This document shows, piece by piece, positions 12,882 through 22,070 of a stretch of DNA of 64,000 nucleotides (positions within the stretch are counted from its first letter, which is position 1; every line of letters begins with the position of its first letter). Both the position numbers and the translations under genes were made by a program. Where the stretch lies: the NCBI GenBank assembly GCA_013373625.1, contig JABXHM010000009.1, positions 1 to 64,000 of the forward strand, read 5' to 3'. The notes below the pieces were generated by a model that worked only from the letters and a program-made list of their open reading frames with translations, did no database searches and was not told the origin of the DNA. The DNA is from Alteromonadaceae bacterium. Lineage in GTDB: Bacteria; Pseudomonadota; Gammaproteobacteria; Enterobacterales; Alteromonadaceae.

Positions 12882-15344
12882 TCATTGGGCAGTCACAGAC
12901 TGCCCTTTTTGTTTCTGTTGATTAACCCCTAAGAAATTAATAAATTCATCCATCGGCAACGGTTTACTGTATAAAAAACCTTGTGCATAACGGCATTTTT
13001 CTGATGCTAAAAACTGTAACTGTTGCGCCGTTTCAACTCCTTCAGCAACAACGTCACAACCTAAGTCGTCTGCAATTTTGATGATGCTTCTGGTTAAATT
13101 ACAACTCGATTGTTCTCCTGGAACACTTGCGATAAAGCTTTTATCAATCTTAAGTGTATCGATGGGCAATTTATTGAGGTAAGACAAAGACGAATATCCC
13201 GTGCCAAAGTCATCAAGCGCAAGTGTAAACCCGGCTTGCTTAAATGCCACCAGGGTTTCTAACTCAACATCAATTAATGCGGTTTCGGTCAACTCAAGCT
13301 CAAACTGACTCGCCGACAAGCCAAAATCATTAATCACCGATTGTAGGTCTGAACATAAATTATTGTTTATTAGCTGACGGGCAGAAATATTCACGGCCAG
13401 TTTGAACGATGACGACACTAACGGATTTATTTGCTGTAGCGCCTTACAGGCACTTAGCATAATGCTTTGTGTTAGTTGTTCAATCAATCCTGTATCTTCA
13501 GCCAGGTCAATAAAAATATCGGGCGATATACTTTGTTCGTCCGGCATAATCCATCTTGCCAGAACTTCAGCACCAACTACCCGTCCGTGTTCGATATCTA
13601 TTTTAGGCTGTAAATAGGCATTTATTTGCCCTGCACTTATTGCATTTCGTAGTGCACTTTCCATGGTTAATGACGACAAACGCGACTCAGTCATCACTGA
13701 CTGATAAACTCTGACAGTGCCTTTTCCTATACCTTTCGCCCAGTACAAAGCTGTATCGGCCTGTTGATAAAGCTCACTGGGCGATTGTGCATACTTGGGA
13801 TACAGGCTGATACCAATACAGCAATCGATATAGACTGGTACCGGACAGCCTATGTCATAGGGGTAGCTGAGTTGCAAACGAATAGCATTAGCTAGCTGTA
13901 TTACCGTAGCGCTTTCTTCCGGTTCTTTGTATAACAGTGAAAATTCATCTCCGCCAACACGAAACAAACGCGCACCAGCAGGCAGTATTGGCGACAGGCG
14001 ACGGCTTATATGAATTAACAACTTATCACCGTTTGAATGACCAAGACTATCGTTCACTTGCTTAAAGTTATCTAAATCGATAAGCAACAGACCATAAACC
14101 TTTTGATCATCGTTCTGGTCCAACGCTTGCGCAGATTCCAGTTCAGCCTGCAGTGCGCGACGATTAGGCAAATCAGTCAGCACATCATGATGGGCAAGGT
14201 GTCGGAGTTCTTCCCGTGCTTCCACCAATTCCGAGATATTGGTTAGCGTTGCCGTATAGCTCGTCAGTTGTTGTTGTCTGTTCTCAACTGCTACCAGGGT
14301 TAACAAGCCATATTGGAGCTTATCATTGTCTCGCCAGGCAACTTCGTCGGTCCAACTTTTAACTTCTTTTAAATGTTCAGTAATGACCTCTTGGGCGGAA
14401 GTCAGATCAAACAATCCCAGCAAACTCTGATCTTTTAATTCGTTAAGTTGTTGCTTATTAAATAGTGTTTGAAAAGCTTTGTTAGTGTTAATAATACAAT
14501 AGTGCTCATTAAGCACGGCAATGCCTTCTCGGCTTTGTTCAAAAACTGTCGTCGCCTGACGCAGTTGCTGTTCATTAGATTCCAGTTTAGCCACTATTTT
14601 ACTGCTGCTTGAAAGTAACAGCTGCCAATCGATCAGAGGATCCGACAAGGCTTTTTTCATTCTGTTTTTATTTGTCAGCATGAAACAAAACAAAAACAAC
14701 CCGAACGACAAAGCAATAATAACTTTACCATTGAGGTTACCAATTATTAATGTGAATACCTCGTCACTTAAACCAATGGCCAGCACAGGGAATAGCACAC
14801 CATCAACCAGGATCATGGCGACAAACCACAAAGAATATGCGGCACTTAACATTACGTAGTTCGATAGCAGCAACTTCAACCGGTCAAAAGTAATAAGTAA
14901 TATGTAAAGTTCGACAATGATGAGTACGGCACCAATAACGATTAACGGAATTGACACCTCAAATAATTCTGAGGGTGTGTTTAATGGGTTGCCGATGTCT
15001 GAAGCGACTAATATTTGAGAAATACTGGCGAATAAAGTGACCTTGAAGATACCTACCATCACAACCAGGCGCATGATATTACGTAGAATAAAGGCATCAT
15101 TTTCGATAAACGCCATCAAGACGCACGCCATGATGAACCCGCCATAAGCGAGTGTTCCACCCGAAATGTTGATTTCGCCAGGCAGCGTTACATTGTAAAC
15201 AGCGCCCAGAAAGCCGCCCATTAATAGCACTATGCTAATGTAAACATACAGAGAAACACGGCGGGTTTGTGGATTTTTTTCAAACGTAAGAGTGAGTGGA
15301 AATAAACAGTAAAGACCAAACTGCACTAAAAGCTGCGTAACCAT
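12882..15344 (-). CDS. membrane GGDEF-EAL cyclic-di-GMP protein
   Basis: An 820-residue inner membrane protein. About seven hydrophobic segments lie in residues 1-225, then a PAS-like domain (about 265-380), a GGDEF domain (about 390-550) and an EAL domain (about 560-810). The cyclase motif GGDEF is intact. The EAL signature reads EVLAR, a tolerated variant, and the catalytic motifs DDFGTGYSSL and VAEGVET are present. Both cyclic-di-GMP synthesis and breakdown are therefore possible; which dominates cannot be told. The membrane part is not an obvious known sensor class to me. Two PilZ receptors are encoded elsewhere in the window. Confidence 0.9.
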   Translation of the reverse strand: MVTQLLVQFGLYCLFPLTLTFEKNPQTRRVSLYVYISIVLLMGGFLGAVYNVTLPGEINISGGTLAYGGFIMACVLMAFIENDAFILRNIMRLVVMVGIFKVTLFASISQILVASDIGNPLNTPSELFEVSIPLIVIGAVLIIVELYILLITFDRLKLLLSNYVMLSAAYSLWFVAMILVDGVLFPVLAIGLSDEVFTLIIGNLNGKVIIALSFGLFLFCFMLTNKNRMKKALSDPLIDWQLLLSSSSKIVAKLESNEQQLRQATTVFEQSREGIAVLNEHYCIINTNKAFQTLFNKQQLNELKDQSLLGLFDLTSAQEVITEHLKEVKSWTDEVAWRDNDKLQYGLLTLVAVENRQQQLTSYTATLTNISELVEAREELRHLAHHDVLTDLPNRRALQAELESAQALDQNDDQKVYGLLLIDLDNFKQVNDSLGHSNGDKLLIHISRRLSPILPAGARLFRVGGDEFSLLYKEPEESATVIQLANAIRLQLSYPYDIGCPVPVYIDCCIGISLYPKYAQSPSELYQQADTALYWAKGIGKGTVRVYQSVMTESRLSSLTMESALRNAISAGQINAYLQPKIDIEHGRVVGAEVLARWIMPDEQSISPDIFIDLAEDTGLIEQLTQSIMLSACKALQQINPLVSSSFKLAVNISARQLINNNLCSDLQSVINDFGLSASQFELELTETALIDVELETLVAFKQAGFTLALDDFGTGYSSLSYLNKLPIDTLKIDKSFIASVPGEQSSCNLTRSIIKIADDLGCDVVAEGVETAQQLQFLASEKCRYAQGFLYSKPLPMDEFINFLGVNQQKQKGQSVTAQ
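12887..12910 (+). terminator. bamD terminator inside a convergent coding region
   Basis: A perfect 8-bp stem (12887-12894 with 12898-12905), a 3-nt loop and five T residues stop bamD transcription. The hairpin overlaps the last codons of the GGDEF/EAL gene (stop at 12882-12884), so those codons serve two purposes. Confidence 0.85.
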
Positions 15345-15516: not shown

Positions 15517-16212
15517 TTATCTGAAGAAAAGATGACTGAAGGGGTTCAGTAATCTTGCAATACCTGACGTAAAGTGAAGCGGTTGATCAACGATACTAAA
15601 CACCAAACATCCTTCATTTGAGTTTGAATGTGGTGCATGCGTGTGTTCGCCGTTCAAATAAATAAAATCACCGGTATCATAGTCATTGACGCCGTCTGAA
15701 AACTCACCATCTATTACCAGTGTCATCTCAGACCCACGATGTGTGTGCTCAGGAACAGAGCCACCTTTACCCATATAAATAAAATTCGCCACGCCCTCGT
15801 AGCCAAGCTCAACAGGTGCTTGCCATAACTTACCGACAAGTGATGACCAGTTGCCACGCTTTTGCACTAACCTGTGTAACGTTTTGGGTAATTCAAACTT
15901 TCTACCATCCAGTTCGATGGTAGCAACTGCCTGGCCGTTTGATTGAGCCATGCGGCCACCAGAATAAACAGTTTCAGCAACGGGTTGCTGTGTGATATTC
16001 GCCAACATCACATCGAACTGCGGATCGTACTGCTCACTGATCGCTTCGAGCTCCAGCTCATGTGCGGCAAACTCTTCAGTTTGCGCCTCAACTTGTCCCT
16101 GACAGTACTGACACATATCACAGTGCGCAGACACCATTAACGATTCTGCGGGAGATAATGTACCCGATACAAACTGCTCTAAGAGCTCAGGTTTTGGATG
16201 AAACTTAATCAT
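15517..16212 (-). CDS. chrR: ChrR-type zinc anti-sigma factor
   Basis: A cytoplasmic anti-sigma factor of 231 residues that should hold the neighbouring ECF sigma factor inactive until singlet oxygen or organic peroxide releases it. The N-terminal ZAS zinc site is complete: H5, H30, C34 and C37. The C-terminal half is a cupin with H156, H158, E162 and a late His cluster (190-195), matching the second metal site of Rhodobacter ChrR that senses the signal. It overlaps the sigma gene by 8 nt, so the two are translationally coupled. Confidence 0.88.
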   Translation of the reverse strand: MIKFHPKPELLEQFVSGTLSPAESLMVSAHCDMCQYCQGQVEAQTEEFAAHELELEAISEQYDPQFDVMLANITQQPVAETVYSGGRMAQSNGQAVATIELDGRKFELPKTLHRLVQKRGNWSSLVGKLWQAPVELGYEGVANFIYMGKGGSVPEHTHRGSEMTLVIDGEFSDGVNDYDTGDFIYLNGEHTHAPHSNSNEGCLVFSIVDQPLHFTSGIARLLNPFSHLFFR

Positions 16213-16816
16213 GATCGCTTAACATACCTTTAAGACGCTGTAGGGCTAATCTGGTCCGCGACTTTACAGTACCTAACGGAATATCCAAATCATCAGCTAT
16301 TTCTTGTTGTGACTTACCATCGATATAAATGGATTCTATAACTACTTTCTGTTTGTCTGGCAGCGAATCGAACAAATGGCCAATCTGCTCCAAAGTAACC
16401 TGTTCATCAAGTGATTTTTCGTTCGCGTCCGGGGTTTGCTCGCATAACACAGGCCACAAATCATCCGCACAAATATCTTCTTTGCGGTTCTGTACTTTTC
16501 GCAACATATCAAACCGGATATTCCGGGCGATAGTAAAAATCCACGTAGAAGGCGATCCCTTCTCGGAATTAAAAAGATGTGCTTTTTGCCAAACATTAGA
16601 CATTGTGTCCTGCACCAGTTCCATGGCCAGTGCTTCGTTGCCCAGTTGCTTTAGGGCATACGAACGCAAACGCGGAGCAAAAAAACCAAATACTCGCGAG
16701 AAAGATGCTTTACAGCGCTCTTCCGCTACTCGCACTAGGTAGTCTGACATTTCAGTTGCACATTCTTTCGGTTCTATCGCACTGTTCTCGTGTTCCAATG
16801 GAATTCCAACAAGCAT
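16205..16816 (-). CDS. ECF RNA polymerase sigma factor, RpoE/ECF11 type
   Basis: A 203-residue group IV sigma factor with region 2 (about 40-105, containing ELVQDTMSNVW) and region 4 (about 140-195, with a clear helix-turn-helix QEIADDLDIPLGTVKSR). Pairing with a ChrR anti-sigma factor places it in the ECF11 group, whose best-known member is Rhodobacter sphaeroides RpoE, the singlet-oxygen response sigma. A TGATC-type promoter sits upstream, which suggests autoregulation. The start at 16816 is the first ATG; a later one at 16750 is possible. This is not the RpoE of the envelope stress system, which is encoded at 52811-53389. Confidence 0.9.
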   Translation of the reverse strand: MLVGIPLEHENSAIEPKECATEMSDYLVRVAEERCKASFSRVFGFFAPRLRSYALKQLGNEALAMELVQDTMSNVWQKAHLFNSEKGSPSTWIFTIARNIRFDMLRKVQNRKEDICADDLWPVLCEQTPDANEKSLDEQVTLEQIGHLFDSLPDKQKVVIESIYIDGKSQQEIADDLDIPLGTVKSRTRLALQRLKGMLSDHD

Positions 16817-16846: not shown

Positions 16847-16876
16847 TGGTTACGCACCAAACACGGCGTTAGATCA
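16847..16876 (-). promoter_or_regulatory. candidate ECF11 promoter of the sigma-chrR pair
   Basis: Read leftward, TGATCT (16871-16876), exactly 18 nt, then TAACCA (16847-16852). The TGATC -35 element is the known signature of ECF11 promoters. The predicted start lies about 25 nt before the sigma gene. The same layout recurs at two other sites in this locus. Confidence 0.65.
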
Positions 16877-16888
16877 AAAAAGATTTAA

Positions 16889-17464
16889 TTATCGAACAAG
16901 GTTGTTTATATAGTTTAACACCTTGTCGCAATTTTGCTCGCTTAGAAAAGCTTGTTTGTTTTCTGCATCAACCGGCAGTAGCTCAAGCCATCGATAAATA
17001 ACCCAAAGTGGTTCTGAAAACTTTAATTCGGGGTACAATTTAGCAATTTCCGGATAACGTGAATAAATAACCTCCAGCTTTTCTCTCAGCGGCTCAATAG
17101 CGTCATCGTCAATGTTAGACGCCCAATCAGTGACCTGCTCGCATTCACCGGTGCGCAGCCCATCACTTTCTGTTTTTATGTTGGTCACCCTCACACAATA
17201 TTGACCTTCAACCTTGATACCTAACAAGCCATCTTCAAGTAGGTCGAAGTCAACAATTTTGCACATTGTGCCAATATCAAAAATATGTTGATTAGTACCC
17301 TGTTCACCGCGACTATTGAGCATACATAACACAAACCGGCCATCACCGGCGCAGGCTTCCTTAACCATACGTACATATCTGGGCTCAAAGATTCGCAGCG
17401 CCATGTGCCCACCCGGAAGTAAATGAGCTGAAAGCGGGAATAATGGAATATGAGCTTTACGCAT
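16889..17464 (-). CDS. LON substrate-binding-domain protein
   Basis: A 191-residue protein consisting of the LON N-terminal (substrate-binding) domain only; neither the AAA+ nor the protease part of Lon is present. It starts with the typical IPLFPLSAHLLPGG strand and has the RIFEPRYVRMV motif. Such stand-alone proteins are widespread and poorly understood. It lies just upstream of the sigma-chrR genes on the same strand (72-nt gap, no terminator seen) and has its own ECF11-like promoter. It is therefore probably part of this stress response; a link to ChrR turnover is only a guess. Confidence 0.85.
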   Translation of the reverse strand: MRKAHIPLFPLSAHLLPGGHMALRIFEPRYVRMVKEACAGDGRFVLCMLNSRGEQGTNQHIFDIGTMCKIVDFDLLEDGLLGIKVEGQYCVRVTNIKTESDGLRTGECEQVTDWASNIDDDAIEPLREKLEVIYSRYPEIAKLYPELKFSEPLWVIYRWLELLPVDAENKQAFLSEQNCDKVLNYINNLVR

Positions 17465-17508
17465 AATAAATATCTATAACCAGTAAGAAAGTTAACTAGA
17501 CGTTGGGA

Positions 17509-17538
17509 GAGATACGCTTTAATCAAAGCTTTGGATCT
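17509..17538 (-). promoter_or_regulatory. candidate ECF11 promoter of the LON-domain gene
   Basis: Read leftward, AGATCC (17533-17538), exactly 18 nt, then TATCTC (17509-17514). The first base differs from TGATC, so this is the weakest of the three sites. It is back to back with the promoter of the divergent operon. Confidence 0.45.
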
Positions 17539-17564
17539 AATCGGACAAAATTATACATAGAAGA

Positions 17565-17594
17565 TGATCTATCCGCTAATAGTGCAGGTATTAT
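17565..17594 (+). promoter_or_regulatory. candidate ECF11 promoter of the five-gene operon
   Basis: TGATCT (17565-17570), exactly 18 nt, then TATTAT (17589-17594). The predicted start lies about 23 nt before the GTG of the first gene. The site shares its -35 element and spacer length with the promoter before the sigma gene. Confidence 0.65.
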
Positions 17595-17623: not shown

Positions 17624-18073
17624 GTGTCGTTTAAGGAACAGTTCGTCAATTTATATCGTGATCTGGCTCTGATTGACGTCGAGGAATTAGCGTCAATATA
17701 TCATCCGGATGTTGTATTTATTGATCCGTTGACAACCCATCACGGTCTTGACGCTGTCAATGCCTACTTTGCAAGTTTGCTGGAATCTGCCGAGTCATGC
17801 CAGTTTGAAATAAACAGCTGGCTCAATATTGCCAACAACCAGCAGCCGCCTTCTTCAGCATCTGCTTACAGCGATGTGTTGGAGTGGACAATGAAGTTAA
17901 AGCTTTGCGGCAGGTCCAACTGGATCGACGTTTCAGGGGTCACATTGCTAAACGTCGTAAACGATAAAATCGTTTATCACCGTGATTATTATGATCTCGG
18001 CGAAATGGTGTATGAGCATATACCACTACTCAAACGTATTATTAAATTCATCAAAAAGAAGCTAACAACATGA
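17624..18073 (+). CDS. NTF2/SnoaL-like protein, first gene of ECF11 operon
   Basis: A small (149-residue) protein of the NTF2-like/SnoaL fold, starting with GTG. The pattern of an N-terminal helix (FKEQFVNLYRDL), the IYHPDVVFIDPL strand and a late YHRDYYDLGEM segment is typical. Proteins of this kind recur at the head of ECF11-controlled clusters next to an SDR, a flavoprotein, DUF1365 and a CFA-synthase-like enzyme. A substrate-binding or isomerase role is possible, but its function is unknown. The stop codon overlaps the next start (ATGA). Confidence 0.8.
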   Translation: MSFKEQFVNLYRDLALIDVEELASIYHPDVVFIDPLTTHHGLDAVNAYFASLLESAESCQFEINSWLNIANNQQPPSSASAYSDVLEWTMKLKLCGRSNWIDVSGVTLLNVVNDKIVYHRDYYDLGEMVYEHIPLLKRIIKFIKKKLTT

Positions 18074-18780
18074 AAACCATGCTAATAACCGGCGCGACAT
18101 CGGGGATCGGAGAGGCGCTGGCCAATCACGCTGCGGCGCGCGGATACCAGGTCATTGCCTGTGGTAGAAATAGTGAAAAGCTGAGCGAGCTGAGCCAAAG
18201 CCATAATATTTCTACACTGGAATTTGATGTGACCAAGATTGACTCGGTGACAGCGGCTCTAAAAGATATTCATTTTGATATCGCTGTGCTAAATGCCGGA
18301 ACCTGCGAATATGTTGATCTACCAGACTTTGAACCTGATATGTTCAGGCGGGTTTTCGAAGTGAACTTTTTTGGTATCGTAAATTGTATGAAGGCGCTTT
18401 TACCGTTAACAAAAGCAGGCAGCCAGCTCGTTATTATCGATTCAATGGCAAGGTTGCTGCCGTTTACACGCAGCCAGGCTTACGGGGCAAGCAAAGCAGC
18501 AGTACGGTACTTTACTGAGAGTATGAAAATCGATTTAAAACAATCCAATGTCATTGTGCAATCTGTCTCGCCCGGTTTTGTAGAAACGCCATTAACCGAT
18601 AAGAACGATTTTGAAATGCCAATGAAGATCACCGCGCCAGAAGCTGCCCAGGCACTACTAAAAGGCATCGAAAAGCGTCATAGTACTATATATTTCCCCA
18701 CCGTATTCGGCCTGATATTGCGTTCCCTTTCTCGGCTACCAGGTCGTATACAAGTTTGGCTTTCATCAAAATTACAATAA
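18070..18780 (+). CDS. short-chain dehydrogenase/reductase
   Basis: A 236-residue classical SDR. The nucleotide-binding motif TGATSGIG (7-14), the NAG strand (about 75-77), S125 and the catalytic pair Y138-K142 (YGASK) are all present, so it should be an active NAD(P)H-dependent oxidoreductase. The substrate is unknown; operon context suggests lipid or fatty-acid chemistry during photo-oxidative stress. It overlaps the upstream gene by 4 nt and is 24 nt from the next. Confidence 0.88.
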   Translation: MKTMLITGATSGIGEALANHAAARGYQVIACGRNSEKLSELSQSHNISTLEFDVTKIDSVTAALKDIHFDIAVLNAGTCEYVDLPDFEPDMFRRVFEVNFFGIVNCMKALLPLTKAGSQLVIIDSMARLLPFTRSQAYGASKAAVRYFTESMKIDLKQSNVIVQSVSPGFVETPLTDKNDFEMPMKITAPEAAQALLKGIEKRHSTIYFPTVFGLILRSLSRLPGRIQVWLSSKLQ

Positions 18781-18804: not shown

Positions 18805-20076
18805 ATGACTAAAAGAATTGCCATTATCGGCTCCGGTATATCCGGCCTGACCTGCGCTTATCTACTTAACAAAGAAAATGCTATCACTGTTTACGAGGCG
18901 AATGACTACATTGGCGGTCATACTGCCACTAAAGACGTTAAGGTCGGTAACGAAAAAGCCGCAATCGATACCGGGTTTATCGTTTTTAACGACTGGACTT
19001 ACCCTAATTTTATTAAACTTCTGACGGCATTGGGAGTAGAGTACCAGCCTACCGAAATGAGTTTCTCTGTGCGTCACCTCGGTACTAACATCGAATACAA
19101 CGGCCACAATCTTAATACACTCTTTGCACAACGGAGCAATTTGCTGCGTCCGCGGTTCTGGAAGATTGTAAAAGATATCGTTCGATTCAATTCATTGTGC
19201 AAAGAAGTCCTCGACAGTAACACAGATACCAGCAACCAGACCTTGTCTTCGTTTATTAGTCAGCATGGATTCAGCGAAGCATTCAGCGAGCACTACATTT
19301 ATCCGATGTGTGCGGCGATCTGGTCAGCAAGCCTGGCACAAACCAAAGCGTTTCCATTGACGTTCTTTTTGCAGTTTTTTAATAATCACGGCTTATTAAA
19401 CATTAATGACCGGCCGCAATGGTTTACTATTAAAGGCGGCTCCAGAGAATACGTGCGGAAAATGGTCAAACCCTTCGAGCAACATATCCGCCTTAACACG
19501 CCCGTCAGGCACGTTGCCCATAGCGACAGTGAAGGTAATTGTGTTGTAGTGACAGACCATGAAGGTCATCAGGAAACATATGATGAGGTCATTTTTGCCT
19601 GTCACAGCGATCAGGCGCTGGCCATGCTTGCGCATCCAAATGATGCGCAAACGCGTATATTGGGTTCCATAGGTTATGCGGAGAATGATGTCGTGCTGCA
19701 TCATGACCAACAACAATTGCCTGAACGCAAGCTGGCCTGGGCGAGCTGGAACTATCGCCTTACGGGCGACCCTAAAGAACAGGAGCGACCTGCTGCAGTG
19801 ACTTATGACATGAATATTTTGCAGTGTCTGTCATCTGAGACCACCTATTGCGTGAGTCTGAATACACCTGATATTGCTGCCGACAAAGTCTTGGGTACCT
19901 ATCGATATGCACACCCACAGTTCAGTCCTGCGATGGTTAATGCCCAACAGCAACGTGAGGAAATTTGCGGTAAGGAGCATCTGCATTTTTGTGGTGCCTA
20001 CTGGTATAACGGTTTTCATGAAGATGGTGTAAGGTCTGCTTTGGATGTCTGCCAACGATTTGGAGCATCACTGTAG
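18805..20076 (+). CDS. FAD-dependent amine-oxidase-like oxidoreductase
   Basis: A 423-residue flavoprotein with an N-terminal Rossmann motif (G9, G11 and G14 in GSGISGL) and the overall shape of the NAD(P)-binding amine oxidase/desaturase superfamily. Close relatives lie in the RpoE-ChrR regulon of Rhodobacter, where such a flavoprotein is tied to unsaturated and furan fatty acid formation and to ChrR turnover; the exact counterpart is not certain from memory. Its stop codon shares a base with the GTG start of the next gene. Confidence 0.83.
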   Translation: MTKRIAIIGSGISGLTCAYLLNKENAITVYEANDYIGGHTATKDVKVGNEKAAIDTGFIVFNDWTYPNFIKLLTALGVEYQPTEMSFSVRHLGTNIEYNGHNLNTLFAQRSNLLRPRFWKIVKDIVRFNSLCKEVLDSNTDTSNQTLSSFISQHGFSEAFSEHYIYPMCAAIWSASLAQTKAFPLTFFLQFFNNHGLLNINDRPQWFTIKGGSREYVRKMVKPFEQHIRLNTPVRHVAHSDSEGNCVVVTDHEGHQETYDEVIFACHSDQALAMLAHPNDAQTRILGSIGYAENDVVLHHDQQQLPERKLAWASWNYRLTGDPKEQERPAAVTYDMNILQCLSSETTYCVSLNTPDIAADKVLGTYRYAHPQFSPAMVNAQQQREEICGKEHLHFCGAYWYNGFHEDGVRSALDVCQRFGASL

Positions 20077-20813
20077 TGGAAAGCACAATCTGTACTGGCA
20101 AAGTGGTTCACGAGCGATTTCGTCCCACTCAACATGCGTTTAAGTATGATATAGCCATGATGTGCCTGAATCTGGATGAAGTAAACCTCCTCGCCCACAC
20201 TGTTAAGGGCTTTTCCAATACGGGCAAAGCAGCCTTTGAATTTCGCCGCAGTGACTATCTTGGCGATCCGGCCAAGCCACTTAAACAATCCGTGTTGTTG
20301 AGAATGAATGAACTCAATGACGATGACGACACACTCAGCGGAGATGTCTTTTTGCTCGGTCAGGCGCGTCATTTCGGCTTTTATTTTAGCCCGGTAAACT
20401 TGTATTTCCTGCGCGCAAAACATACCGGCCTATTCACTCATATGCTCGCCGAGGTCAGCAATACTCCCTGGAATGAACGCCATCATTATCTGGTTAACCT
20501 GGCCAGTCAGGCTAACACGCCAAAAGCATTTCATGTGTCGCCATTTAACCCTATTGATATGGTCTATAAATGGCACATTCAGTCGCCTGCAAAAACATTT
20601 TCTGTAGGCCTTAGTTGTTACAAGGGCAACAAACATTTCACCGCTGAAATGCACTTAGAGCAAAAACCGTTAAACTCAAAGTCGATTAGAAACGTAATTA
20701 AAGCAATCCCTAATATGACGCTAAGAACTGTCATCGGAATTTACTGGCAAGCACTTCGCTTATGGTTAAAACGAACCCCAGTTTATTCACATCCGATAAA
20801 TAGTCAGGAATAA
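20076..20813 (+). CDS. DUF1365 family protein
   Basis: A 245-residue protein of DUF1365, recognisable from the start (CTGKVVHERFRPTQHAF) and from the NLYFL and WNERH segments. Its biochemical activity is unknown. DUF1365 genes are almost always found between an FAD amine-oxidase-like gene and a CFA-synthase-like gene, as here, which implies a shared lipid-modifying pathway. Start is GTG, overlapping the previous stop; the next gene begins 3 nt downstream. Confidence 0.85.
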   Translation: MESTICTGKVVHERFRPTQHAFKYDIAMMCLNLDEVNLLAHTVKGFSNTGKAAFEFRRSDYLGDPAKPLKQSVLLRMNELNDDDDTLSGDVFLLGQARHFGFYFSPVNLYFLRAKHTGLFTHMLAEVSNTPWNERHHYLVNLASQANTPKAFHVSPFNPIDMVYKWHIQSPAKTFSVGLSCYKGNKHFTAEMHLEQKPLNSKSIRNVIKAIPNMTLRTVIGIYWQALRLWLKRTPVYSHPINSQE

Positions 20814-20816
20814 ATC

Positions 20817-22070
20817 ATGGCCAATACTGAATCATCCATCGCACAGCCTTTGTCGTTCTCTTACCTGGACCGTTGCAGTCGTCAAATCTTTATTCGGCTG
20901 ATGCAGGCGTTACCGGAAGGCTATCTGGTGATTAAAGAAAATGATGAGCTGGTTGCACAATGCGGTAATCACAAGAGCGACCTCCATGCTGAAGTGAATA
21001 TACACTCTCCTAAAGCCTATAAAAAATTGTTATTGGGCGGCAGTGTGGCTTCAGGAGAAACTTACACTGATGGACTCTGGTCGAGCCCGGAACTTACCAA
21101 TGTCATACGTATTTTTGCACGTAATTTACCGACCCTCGACAAATGGGAGAATCGCTTTAGCTGGTTATCGTTTCCCATGGATAAAATCCAACATGTGATG
21201 CGCCGCAACACGCCTGACCAGGCAAAGAAGAACATCGCCGCACACTATGACCTGGGCAACACCCTGTATAGCCGTTTCTTGGACGAAAGCATGATGTATT
21301 CATCGGCTATTTACCCGGATCCCAATGCCAGCCTCGCTGAGGCGCAATATCACAAATTACACACTATATGCCAGAAGTTGCAACTGACACCTGACGATCA
21401 CCTGGTAGAAATTGGCACTGGCTGGGGCGGCTTAGCGATTCATGCGGCAAAGCATTTCGGCTGTCAGGTGACCACCACCACAATTTCAGAAGAGCAGTAT
21501 GCTTATGCTAGCGACTGGGTTAAGCGTGAAGGGCTCGATAATAAGGTCACGTTACTTAAAAAAGATTATCGCTTACTGGAAGGTCAATATACCAAGTTAG
21601 TGTCTATTGAAATGATTGAAGCTGTAGGTAAACCCTACCTGAATCACTTCTTCAATAAATGCGCCAGCCTGCTTACTTCTGATGGCTTAATGCTATTGCA
21701 ATCCATTACCATCGATGACCGCCGCTACGATAGTTATCACAAAGGTGTCGACTTTATTCAGAAACACATCTTCCCTGGCGGTTTTTTGCCGTCACAGTTA
21801 GTGCTTAATCAGCATATCAAACAAGCCAGTGACTTTTCTATCCGCGACTTACAGGATATTGGTTTGGATTATGCCAAAACATTACGAGACTGGTTTGTTG
21901 CCTTTACAGCCGCGCGCCAGGAACTGGAGGCAAACGGTTATGATGAACGTTTTGCCCGGATGTGGGAATATTATCTGAAATATTGCGAGGGTGGCTTTTT
22001 AGAACGTACTATCAGCACGGTACAACTGGTGCTGAGTAAACCACGATACGTCAATAACCTTACCCGCTAA
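20817..22070 (+). CDS. cyclopropane-fatty-acyl-phospholipid synthase-like methyltransferase
   Basis: A 417-residue SAM-dependent methyltransferase of the CFA synthase family, which adds a methylene from SAM to the double bond of membrane lipid acyl chains. The SAM motif VEIGTGWGGLA (about 197-207) and the AHYDLGN segment are clear. In ECF11 regulons this type of enzyme is a stress-induced lipid modifier; a UfaM-like role in furan fatty acids is an alternative to plain cyclopropanation. Last gene of the operon, with a hairpin spanning its stop codon. Confidence 0.88.
   Translation: MANTESSIAQPLSFSYLDRCSRQIFIRLMQALPEGYLVIKENDELVAQCGNHKSDLHAEVNIHSPKAYKKLLLGGSVASGETYTDGLWSSPELTNVIRIFARNLPTLDKWENRFSWLSFPMDKIQHVMRRNTPDQAKKNIAAHYDLGNTLYSRFLDESMMYSSAIYPDPNASLAEAQYHKLHTICQKLQLTPDDHLVEIGTGWGGLAIHAAKHFGCQVTTTTISEEQYAYASDWVKREGLDNKVTLLKKDYRLLEGQYTKLVSIEMIEAVGKPYLNHFFNKCASLLTSDGLMLLQSITIDDRRYDSYHKGVDFIQKHIFPGGFLPSQLVLNQHIKQASDFSIRDLQDIGLDYAKTLRDWFVAFTAARQELEANGYDERFARMWEYYLKYCEGGFLERTISTVQLVLSKPRYVNNLTR

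Follow-up and report, generated by a model that had tools for sequence, protein, structure and literature searches.

Analysis of a 64,000-nt stretch of Alteromonadaceae DNA (hereafter the window) points to a locus that we read, with a probability of about 0.88, as the RpoE-ChrR (ECF11) singlet-oxygen, or photo-oxidative stress, locus of an Alteromonas-type bacterium, with three local promoters and at least two more elsewhere in the genome. On this reading the locus would be a clear example of a singlet-oxygen response outside the classical phototrophs, with a LON-domain gene as its probable feedback gene. In the mechanism that we propose, the sigma factor would read its own promoter (autoregulation), the promoter of the LON-domain gene, which is probably first in a LON-sigma-chrR unit and would thus supply a second feedback promoter, the promoter of a divergent SnoaL-SDR-FAD-DUF1365-CFA operon, and at least two promoters elsewhere, those of a DUF4397 lipoprotein gene and a photolyase gene. 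These promoters would form conserved grades: those of the sigma gene, the lipid operon and the DUF4397 gene mostly keep the initial TG of the -35 element, while those of the LON gene and, with few exceptions, the photolyase gene lie one base away. Such an off-consensus -35 may set the basal level or threshold of the LON and photolyase genes and, at LON, may limit the gain of the sigma feedback loop.

In the RpoE-ChrR family, ChrR holds the sigma factor until singlet oxygen or hydroperoxide releases it, and the free sigma factor directs RNA polymerase to promoters of the form TGATCC-N16-CGTA. DUF1365 is a core gene of the RpoE-ChrR regulon. The genes and predicted promoters of the locus are as follows:

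15517..16212, minus strand: ChrR zinc anti-sigma factor, 231 aa (TIGR02451, 159.5 bits, cut-off 124.5; Cupin_7), overlapping the sigma gene
16205..16816, minus strand: RpoE-type ECF sigma factor, 203 aa (Pfam Sigma70_r2/r4; NF008890, 343.4 bits, cut-off 284)
16849..16876, minus strand: predicted ECF11-type promoter of the sigma gene (-35 TGATCT 16871-16876, N16, -10 CGTAAC 16849-16854)
16889..17464, minus strand: stand-alone LON substrate-binding-domain protein, 191 aa (PF02190, E 1.6e-24, residues 6-189)
17511..17538, minus strand: predicted ECF11-type promoter of the LON-domain gene (-35 AGATCC 17533-17538, N16, -10 CGTATC 17511-17516)
17565..17592, plus strand: predicted ECF11-type promoter of the divergent lipid/flavoprotein operon (-35 TGATCT 17565-17570, N16, -10 GGTATT 17587-17592)
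17624..18073, plus strand: SnoaL-like protein, first gene of the divergent operon (Pfam)
18070..18780, plus strand: short-chain dehydrogenase, SDR (Pfam)
18805..20076, plus strand: FAD-dependent amine-oxidase-family protein (Pfam)
20076..20813, plus strand: DUF1365 protein (Pfam)
20817..22070, plus strand: cyclopropane-fatty-acid-synthase-like (CFA) methyltransferase (PF02353, E 1.9e-80)

Regions 2 and 4 were both found in the sigma protein, as expected of an ECF-type factor. Its top model, NF008890, bears just the general name 'RNA polymerase sigma factor', and no ECF11-specific model was among the matches; we assign it to the ECF11, or RpoE-ChrR, kind because of its ChrR partner and the promoter motif, which bears out the class originally predicted for it. 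The ChrR protein scores above the TIGR02451 cut-off and carries an N-terminal zinc site (H5, H30, C34, C37) and a C-terminal cupin zinc site (H156, H158, E162, H192), with all of these residues invariant among 14 sequences and in agreement with the ligands listed in the available text of PMC6852236. The core targets CFA, flavoprotein and SDR stand behind a single site and would be co-transcribed. For the LON-domain protein, the Pfam search gave no domain besides PF02190, and the top solved chains were 7cay and 1zbo; that it acts in the turnover of ChrR or of oxidised proteins is no more than a guess. On the chrR strand, downstream of that gene, the window also encodes a GGDEF-EAL protein whose N-terminal domain is a VUPS sensor (12882-15344, minus strand).

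The original prediction described three promoters with an identical 18-nt spacing, and reading of the sequence recovers these pairs exactly, with -10 hexamers TAACCA (16847-16852, minus strand), TATCTC (17509-17514, minus strand) and TATTAT (17589-17594, plus strand). The published -10, CGTA, begins 2 nt before these hexamers, and in the published frame all three sites have N16. Written this way, the three predicted sites fit the published RpoE-ChrR (ECF11) promoter TGATCC-N16-CGTA and match in register the motifs published for Shewanella and Vibrio cholerae. The RpoE2 promoters of Shewanella are given as TGATCC-N16-CGTAAT/ATT, with starts mapped for rpoE2 and pgpD (PMC4336711, in the portion available). 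In the window, the sigma start codon lies 32 nt downstream of its own site, the LON -35 (AGATCC) is one base off TGATCC, and the SnoaL-operon promoter has a non-consensus -10 (GGTA).

Chance matches to a short motif would be the simplest explanation of three such sites, and the bare motif is indeed common: across the 5.09 Mb of the genome TGATCT-N18-TA has 135 matches, against 29 for its reversed form, and the stricter TGATC-N16-18-CGTAW has 41 (16 reversed), a large majority of them inside ORFs. Three of the 41 strict matches lie outside ORFs of at least 100 aa with an ORF start close downstream, and we rejected the genome motif scan as proof on that ground. These three plausible matches precede the sigma gene, the DUF4397 lipoprotein gene and a subtilisin-like gene; on direct reading, the match before the subtilisin-like gene sits inside an inverted repeat. 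The genome-wide scan that had been proposed as a check was thus nearly uninformative alone, and we therefore turned to orthologous loci, where the sites recur before the same genes far above controls. Since the sites are conserved at the same places in dozens of relatives, position by position and well beyond what shuffled, reversed and other-gene controls give, they are more than chance matches, an explanation that we regard as scarcely credible.

A search with the sigma protein gave a match at E<=1e-20 in 175 of 196 family genomes, from which a first set of 80 loci was fetched (77 with sigma identity of at least 54% plus three lower). LON, sigma and ChrR genes were adjacent in all 77 of the former, and no LON match was found in the three lower-identity loci. 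Sites were sought 15-90 nt before the start, with a spacer of 15-17 and a mismatch cost of at most 2, in 78 loci (the window and 77 relatives); they were present before sigma in 67/78, before LON in 72/78 and before SnoaL in 46/72. Shuffled upstream sequences gave about 7-8%, reversed upstream sequences 2/78, 7/78 and 3/72 for the same three genes, and the downstream SDR and FAD genes 4/71 and 7/76. The second set, which overlaps the first in part, comprised the window and the best 80 of 506 relatives by LON search, with LON-sigma-ChrR adjacency in 80/80 of the loci kept and sites at the same cost before sigma in 57/81, LON in 71/81 and SnoaL in 65/73. The closest named relatives by LON search were Alteromonas oceani, A. 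alba, A. lipolytica, Marisediminitalea and uncultured Alteromonadaceae records, and in the 11 nearest named relatives among the best 80 of 506 (L111-L121) all three sites were kept in 11/11. Conservation before orthologues, which the original prediction had named as its support, thus holds at all three sites, the autoregulatory one included; fixed spacing holds for the three window sites, all N16, while spacers of 15 or 17 also occur in relatives within the 15-17 range searched. The distance limits excluded matches about 160-210 nt upstream of SnoaL in L092-L106, which by coordinates lie inside the photolyase gene that precedes SnoaL there. The relatives tested form one family, and Shewanella, Vibrio and Pseudomonas were compared through papers only. 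As a class-wide partner of ChrR, the LON-domain gene did not hold up: a LON-type protein was found in 99 of 274 class genomes and ChrR in 10 of 274, and the two were neighbours, by listed coordinates, in 2 of the 10 ChrR-bearing genomes (G000, G001).

In the window, the LON and sigma genes are co-directional with 72 nt between them, a gap for which no terminator-like site was called. Because LON, sigma and chrR run in one direction without such a site between LON and sigma, the three transcripts foreseen in the original prediction are probably not separate units, although the sites through which they would answer to the sigma factor are conserved; LON probably heads a LON-sigma-chrR operon, with its promoter also reading into sigma and chrR. 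After deduplication (120 loci out of 158), the sigma gene's own site, at a cost of at most 1.5 and within 60 nt, was present in 69 of the 73 loci whose LON-sigma gap is below 100 nt and in 15 of the 47 whose gap is wider. Autoregulation through this site therefore agrees with the conserved site before sigma in most loci of the first set, but is not universal, since the site is missing in 36/120 loci, among them those of seven same-genus genomes (L031-L037), A. marina, A. portus and A. genovensis. The LON site is present in 34 of these 36.

In many Alteromonas (L031-L037, L164, L167-L170 and others) the LON site is kept, the sigma gene's own site is missing and the LON-sigma gap is longer. There the LON promoter is the only ECF11-type promoter seen for sigma. 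LON, sigma and chrR are probably read together, and the LON promoter would give the feedback.

Conserved sites also occur elsewhere in the genome. A DUF4397 lipoprotein gene (contig C46:50180-51547; loci L210 and L023) is preceded, about 30-36 nt before its start, by a perfect TGATCC-N16-CGTAAT. A search of 59 genus genomes found the protein in 30, and across these 30 loci, the genome of the window included, site cost was at most 0.5 in 25, 1.5 in two and 2.5 in one, with no site in two. At a cost of at most 1.5 this amounts to 27/30 loci, compared with 1.4% of shuffles (0.07% at cost 0.5), and the gene is likely a further regulon member; no paper holding both DUF4397 and 'sigma factor' was found in open-licence PMC. 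The photolyase gene on contig C43 was found in 59/59 genus genomes, with a site at cost <=2 in 30/30 of the best 30 of these loci versus 14.6% of shuffles, a modest per-locus excess over chance. Outside the genus, 41 family genomes matched and 40 were fetched, with a site within 10-110 nt in 25 and none in 15. The regulon is thus not self-contained, as had been proposed, because the DUF4397 lipoprotein and photolyase genes elsewhere carry conserved sites.

The photolyase gene on contig C43 belongs to a cluster (L208:5279-11031) that also has genes for a photolyase-related DPRP protein and a zinc metallopeptidase-like product and, divergently oriented, a second photolyase/cryptochrome-like gene. 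The more distant loci (L090-L107) contain, in 18/18 cases, a further photolyase gene within the locus itself, between LON and SnoaL and before SnoaL, and its product is 32-38% identical to the photolyase of the window genome.

Much of this arrangement has published counterparts. In Shewanella oneidensis, TGATC(C/A)-N16-CGTA promoters precede rpoE2-chrR, the LON-domain gene SO_1987, a cfa operon and photolyase genes, and transcripts of chrR and SO_1987 rose in RT-PCR when RpoE2 was expressed (PMC4336711, in the portion available). As in the window, SO_1987 is next to rpoE2-chrR by locus number and has its own RpoE2-induced promoter, TGATCA-N16-CGTAAT, and cfa and photolyase are among the RpoE2 targets; by locus number, however, these two targets are placed away from rpoE2-chrR (same portion of PMC4336711). 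The lipid operon of the window is instead divergent from LON, and the DUF4397 lipoprotein is a further candidate. The RpoE-ChrR system of Rhodobacter sphaeroides likewise pairs the sigma factor with a ChrR bearing both zinc sites (PMC6852236), and its core targets include SDR, flavin-containing amine oxidase, phrB and cfaS (PMC6852236; Table 2 of PMC5507510), but no LON-domain gene is mentioned for the core regulon in the available text of PMC6852236, and rpoHII is also an RpoE target there (PMC3441632, available part). Pseudomonas syringae PSPTO_1043/1042 has the consensus TGATCCn16CGTA and a phrB-cfa locus whose phrB promoter is likewise one base off (aGATCC); its sigma and lipid genes lie in separate loci, and no LON-domain gene is among the rows of Table 3 that were compared (PMC5507510). 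Vibrio cholerae SigE-ChrR shares the TGATC-N16-18-CGTAW motif and a blue-light response, with CFA synthase up under blue light; it differs in that the hypothetical gene VC2303 shares the ChrR operon, and promoter grades are not mentioned in the available part of PMC5241685. Neither the motif, nor the LON neighbour, nor most of the gene set is therefore new. Alteromonas was not mentioned among the matches listed in a search of titles and abstracts in open-licence PMC.

What appears to be new is that one target promoter seems to stay exactly one letter short of the ideal among the relatives compared. For this count, sites were located by ATC at -35 positions 3-5, a spacer of 15-17 and GTA in the -10, with positions 1-2 ignored. 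Sites were located before LON in 111 of 120 deduplicated loci, and their mismatches to TG were none in 0, one in 110 and two in 1. The corresponding numbers were 79, 4 and 2 for sigma (85/120 located), 68, 2 and 1 for the SnoaL operon (71/109) and 25 with none and 1 with one for DUF4397 (26/30). For photolyase, 29 of the best 30 of 59 genus loci gave a site, all 29 with one mismatch, and outside the genus (25/40 located) 2 had none, 22 one and 1 two; one mismatch thus accounts for 51 of 54 located photolyase sites overall, a rule with exceptions, given the non-genus sites with none or two. The only two full-TGATC photolyase promoters located (L302 and L308, in genomes G075 and G033) belong to one genus (g33). 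Shuffled sequences gave 3.5-4.3% matches, more than half of them with two mismatches. The nine LON loci missed include sites farther upstream and degenerate ones, and a wider window gave 114 LON sites, with 0 TG and 1 double mismatch.

The LON site could conceivably be read by another sigma factor, or need an activator, and merely resemble an ECF11 site, as its complete lack of TGATC at the 111 located sites and the A-rich start of its spacer, where that of sigma is T-rich, might suggest. We consider this unlikely: the site shares the register, the CGTA -10 and the locus of the others, the LON-domain gene of Shewanella is induced by RpoE2 (PMC4336711), and variants with AG, CG or TA at positions 1-2 respond to the RpoE-ChrR-type factor of P. 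syringae (PMC5507510; both papers in the portions available). On overexpression of that factor, phrB (aGATCC) rose 14-fold, katG (TaATCt), which is also expressed sigma-independently, 41-fold and an acetyl-CoA acetyltransferase gene (cGATCg) 11-fold (PMC5507510, Table 3), so that all three kinds of -35 variant can work.

A more substantial alternative, though still a tentative one, is that positions 1-2 of the LON -35 are merely relaxed, compensated by a better -10 (gCGTAA), and that shared ancestry makes the pattern look strict. Such mixing and matching among ECF promoter elements has been published for sigma-E and sigma-W (PMC5333181, available part). The LON -10 is CGTA in 101 of 115 sites, with G before it in 61% and A after it in 61%, while the TGATC-bearing operon has a poor -10, and single-position tests on the LON -35 were only moderate. 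Relaxation should, however, sometimes yield TG and sometimes two mismatches, which the counts of 0 and 1 in 114 hardly show, and the DUF4397 promoter combines a full -35 with a full -10; the idea accounts for a relaxed -35, not for the absence of a perfect LON -35 among located sites. The tree statistics were computed on a single FastTree protein tree with simple models. Position 1 of the LON -35 requires at least 23 changes by parsimony, and changes between TA and the other variants number at least 7. When the two positions were simulated independently with matched rates and frequencies, 1 run in 5000 was as extreme on both counts (singly, P(TG) 0.0054 and P(double) 0.037), and the probability of no T among 97 tips with G was 0.0065 with uniform bases, 0.0005 with AT bias and 0.073 if T is rare at 10%. 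An earlier simulation on a looser site set gave 0/2000, but was biased against double mismatches because site choice included the graded bases; the one TG (L101) and one double mismatch (L049) among the 115 LON sites of that set look like doubtful assignments.

The LON -35 pattern thus suggests selection for an off-consensus promoter. The fuller claim, to which we give even odds, is that across Alteromonadaceae stabilising selection keeps the LON promoter, and largely that of photolyase, exactly one base off the ideal -35, allowing neither a perfect site nor a doubly mismatched one, and that feedback gain and basal level are fixed in this way. In the published SO_1987 site, the one Shewanella promoter compared, the departure from TGATCC is at position 6, whereas LON in the window departs at positions 1-2 (PMC4336711, available part). 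A single mismatch need not mean a simply weaker promoter, given that the one-mismatch phrB promoter of P. syringae gave the largest response among four reporters (70- to 100-fold) and that TGATC promoters there range from 2- to 107-fold (PMC5507510, including Table 3); off-consensus may instead mean tighter, with low leak and a large fold change. No paper with graded ECF11 promoters as its subject was found among the titles and abstracts listed from open-licence PMC. If the exactly-one-mismatch rule survives experiment, the question of why promoters are not perfect becomes a one-base question.

Two other causes of the LON pattern were considered. One, that the -35 boxes of LON and the divergent operon keep a set distance from each other, was rejected, the gap ranging from 4 to 92 nt in 77 loci. 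Dam methylation is not favoured, judging from the letters, as the TAATC variants are without GATC and TGATC itself has it. Of 81 sites before the SnoaL operon, 13 have C as the first base of the -10; this base has changed at least 19 times and looks unconstrained rather than avoided.
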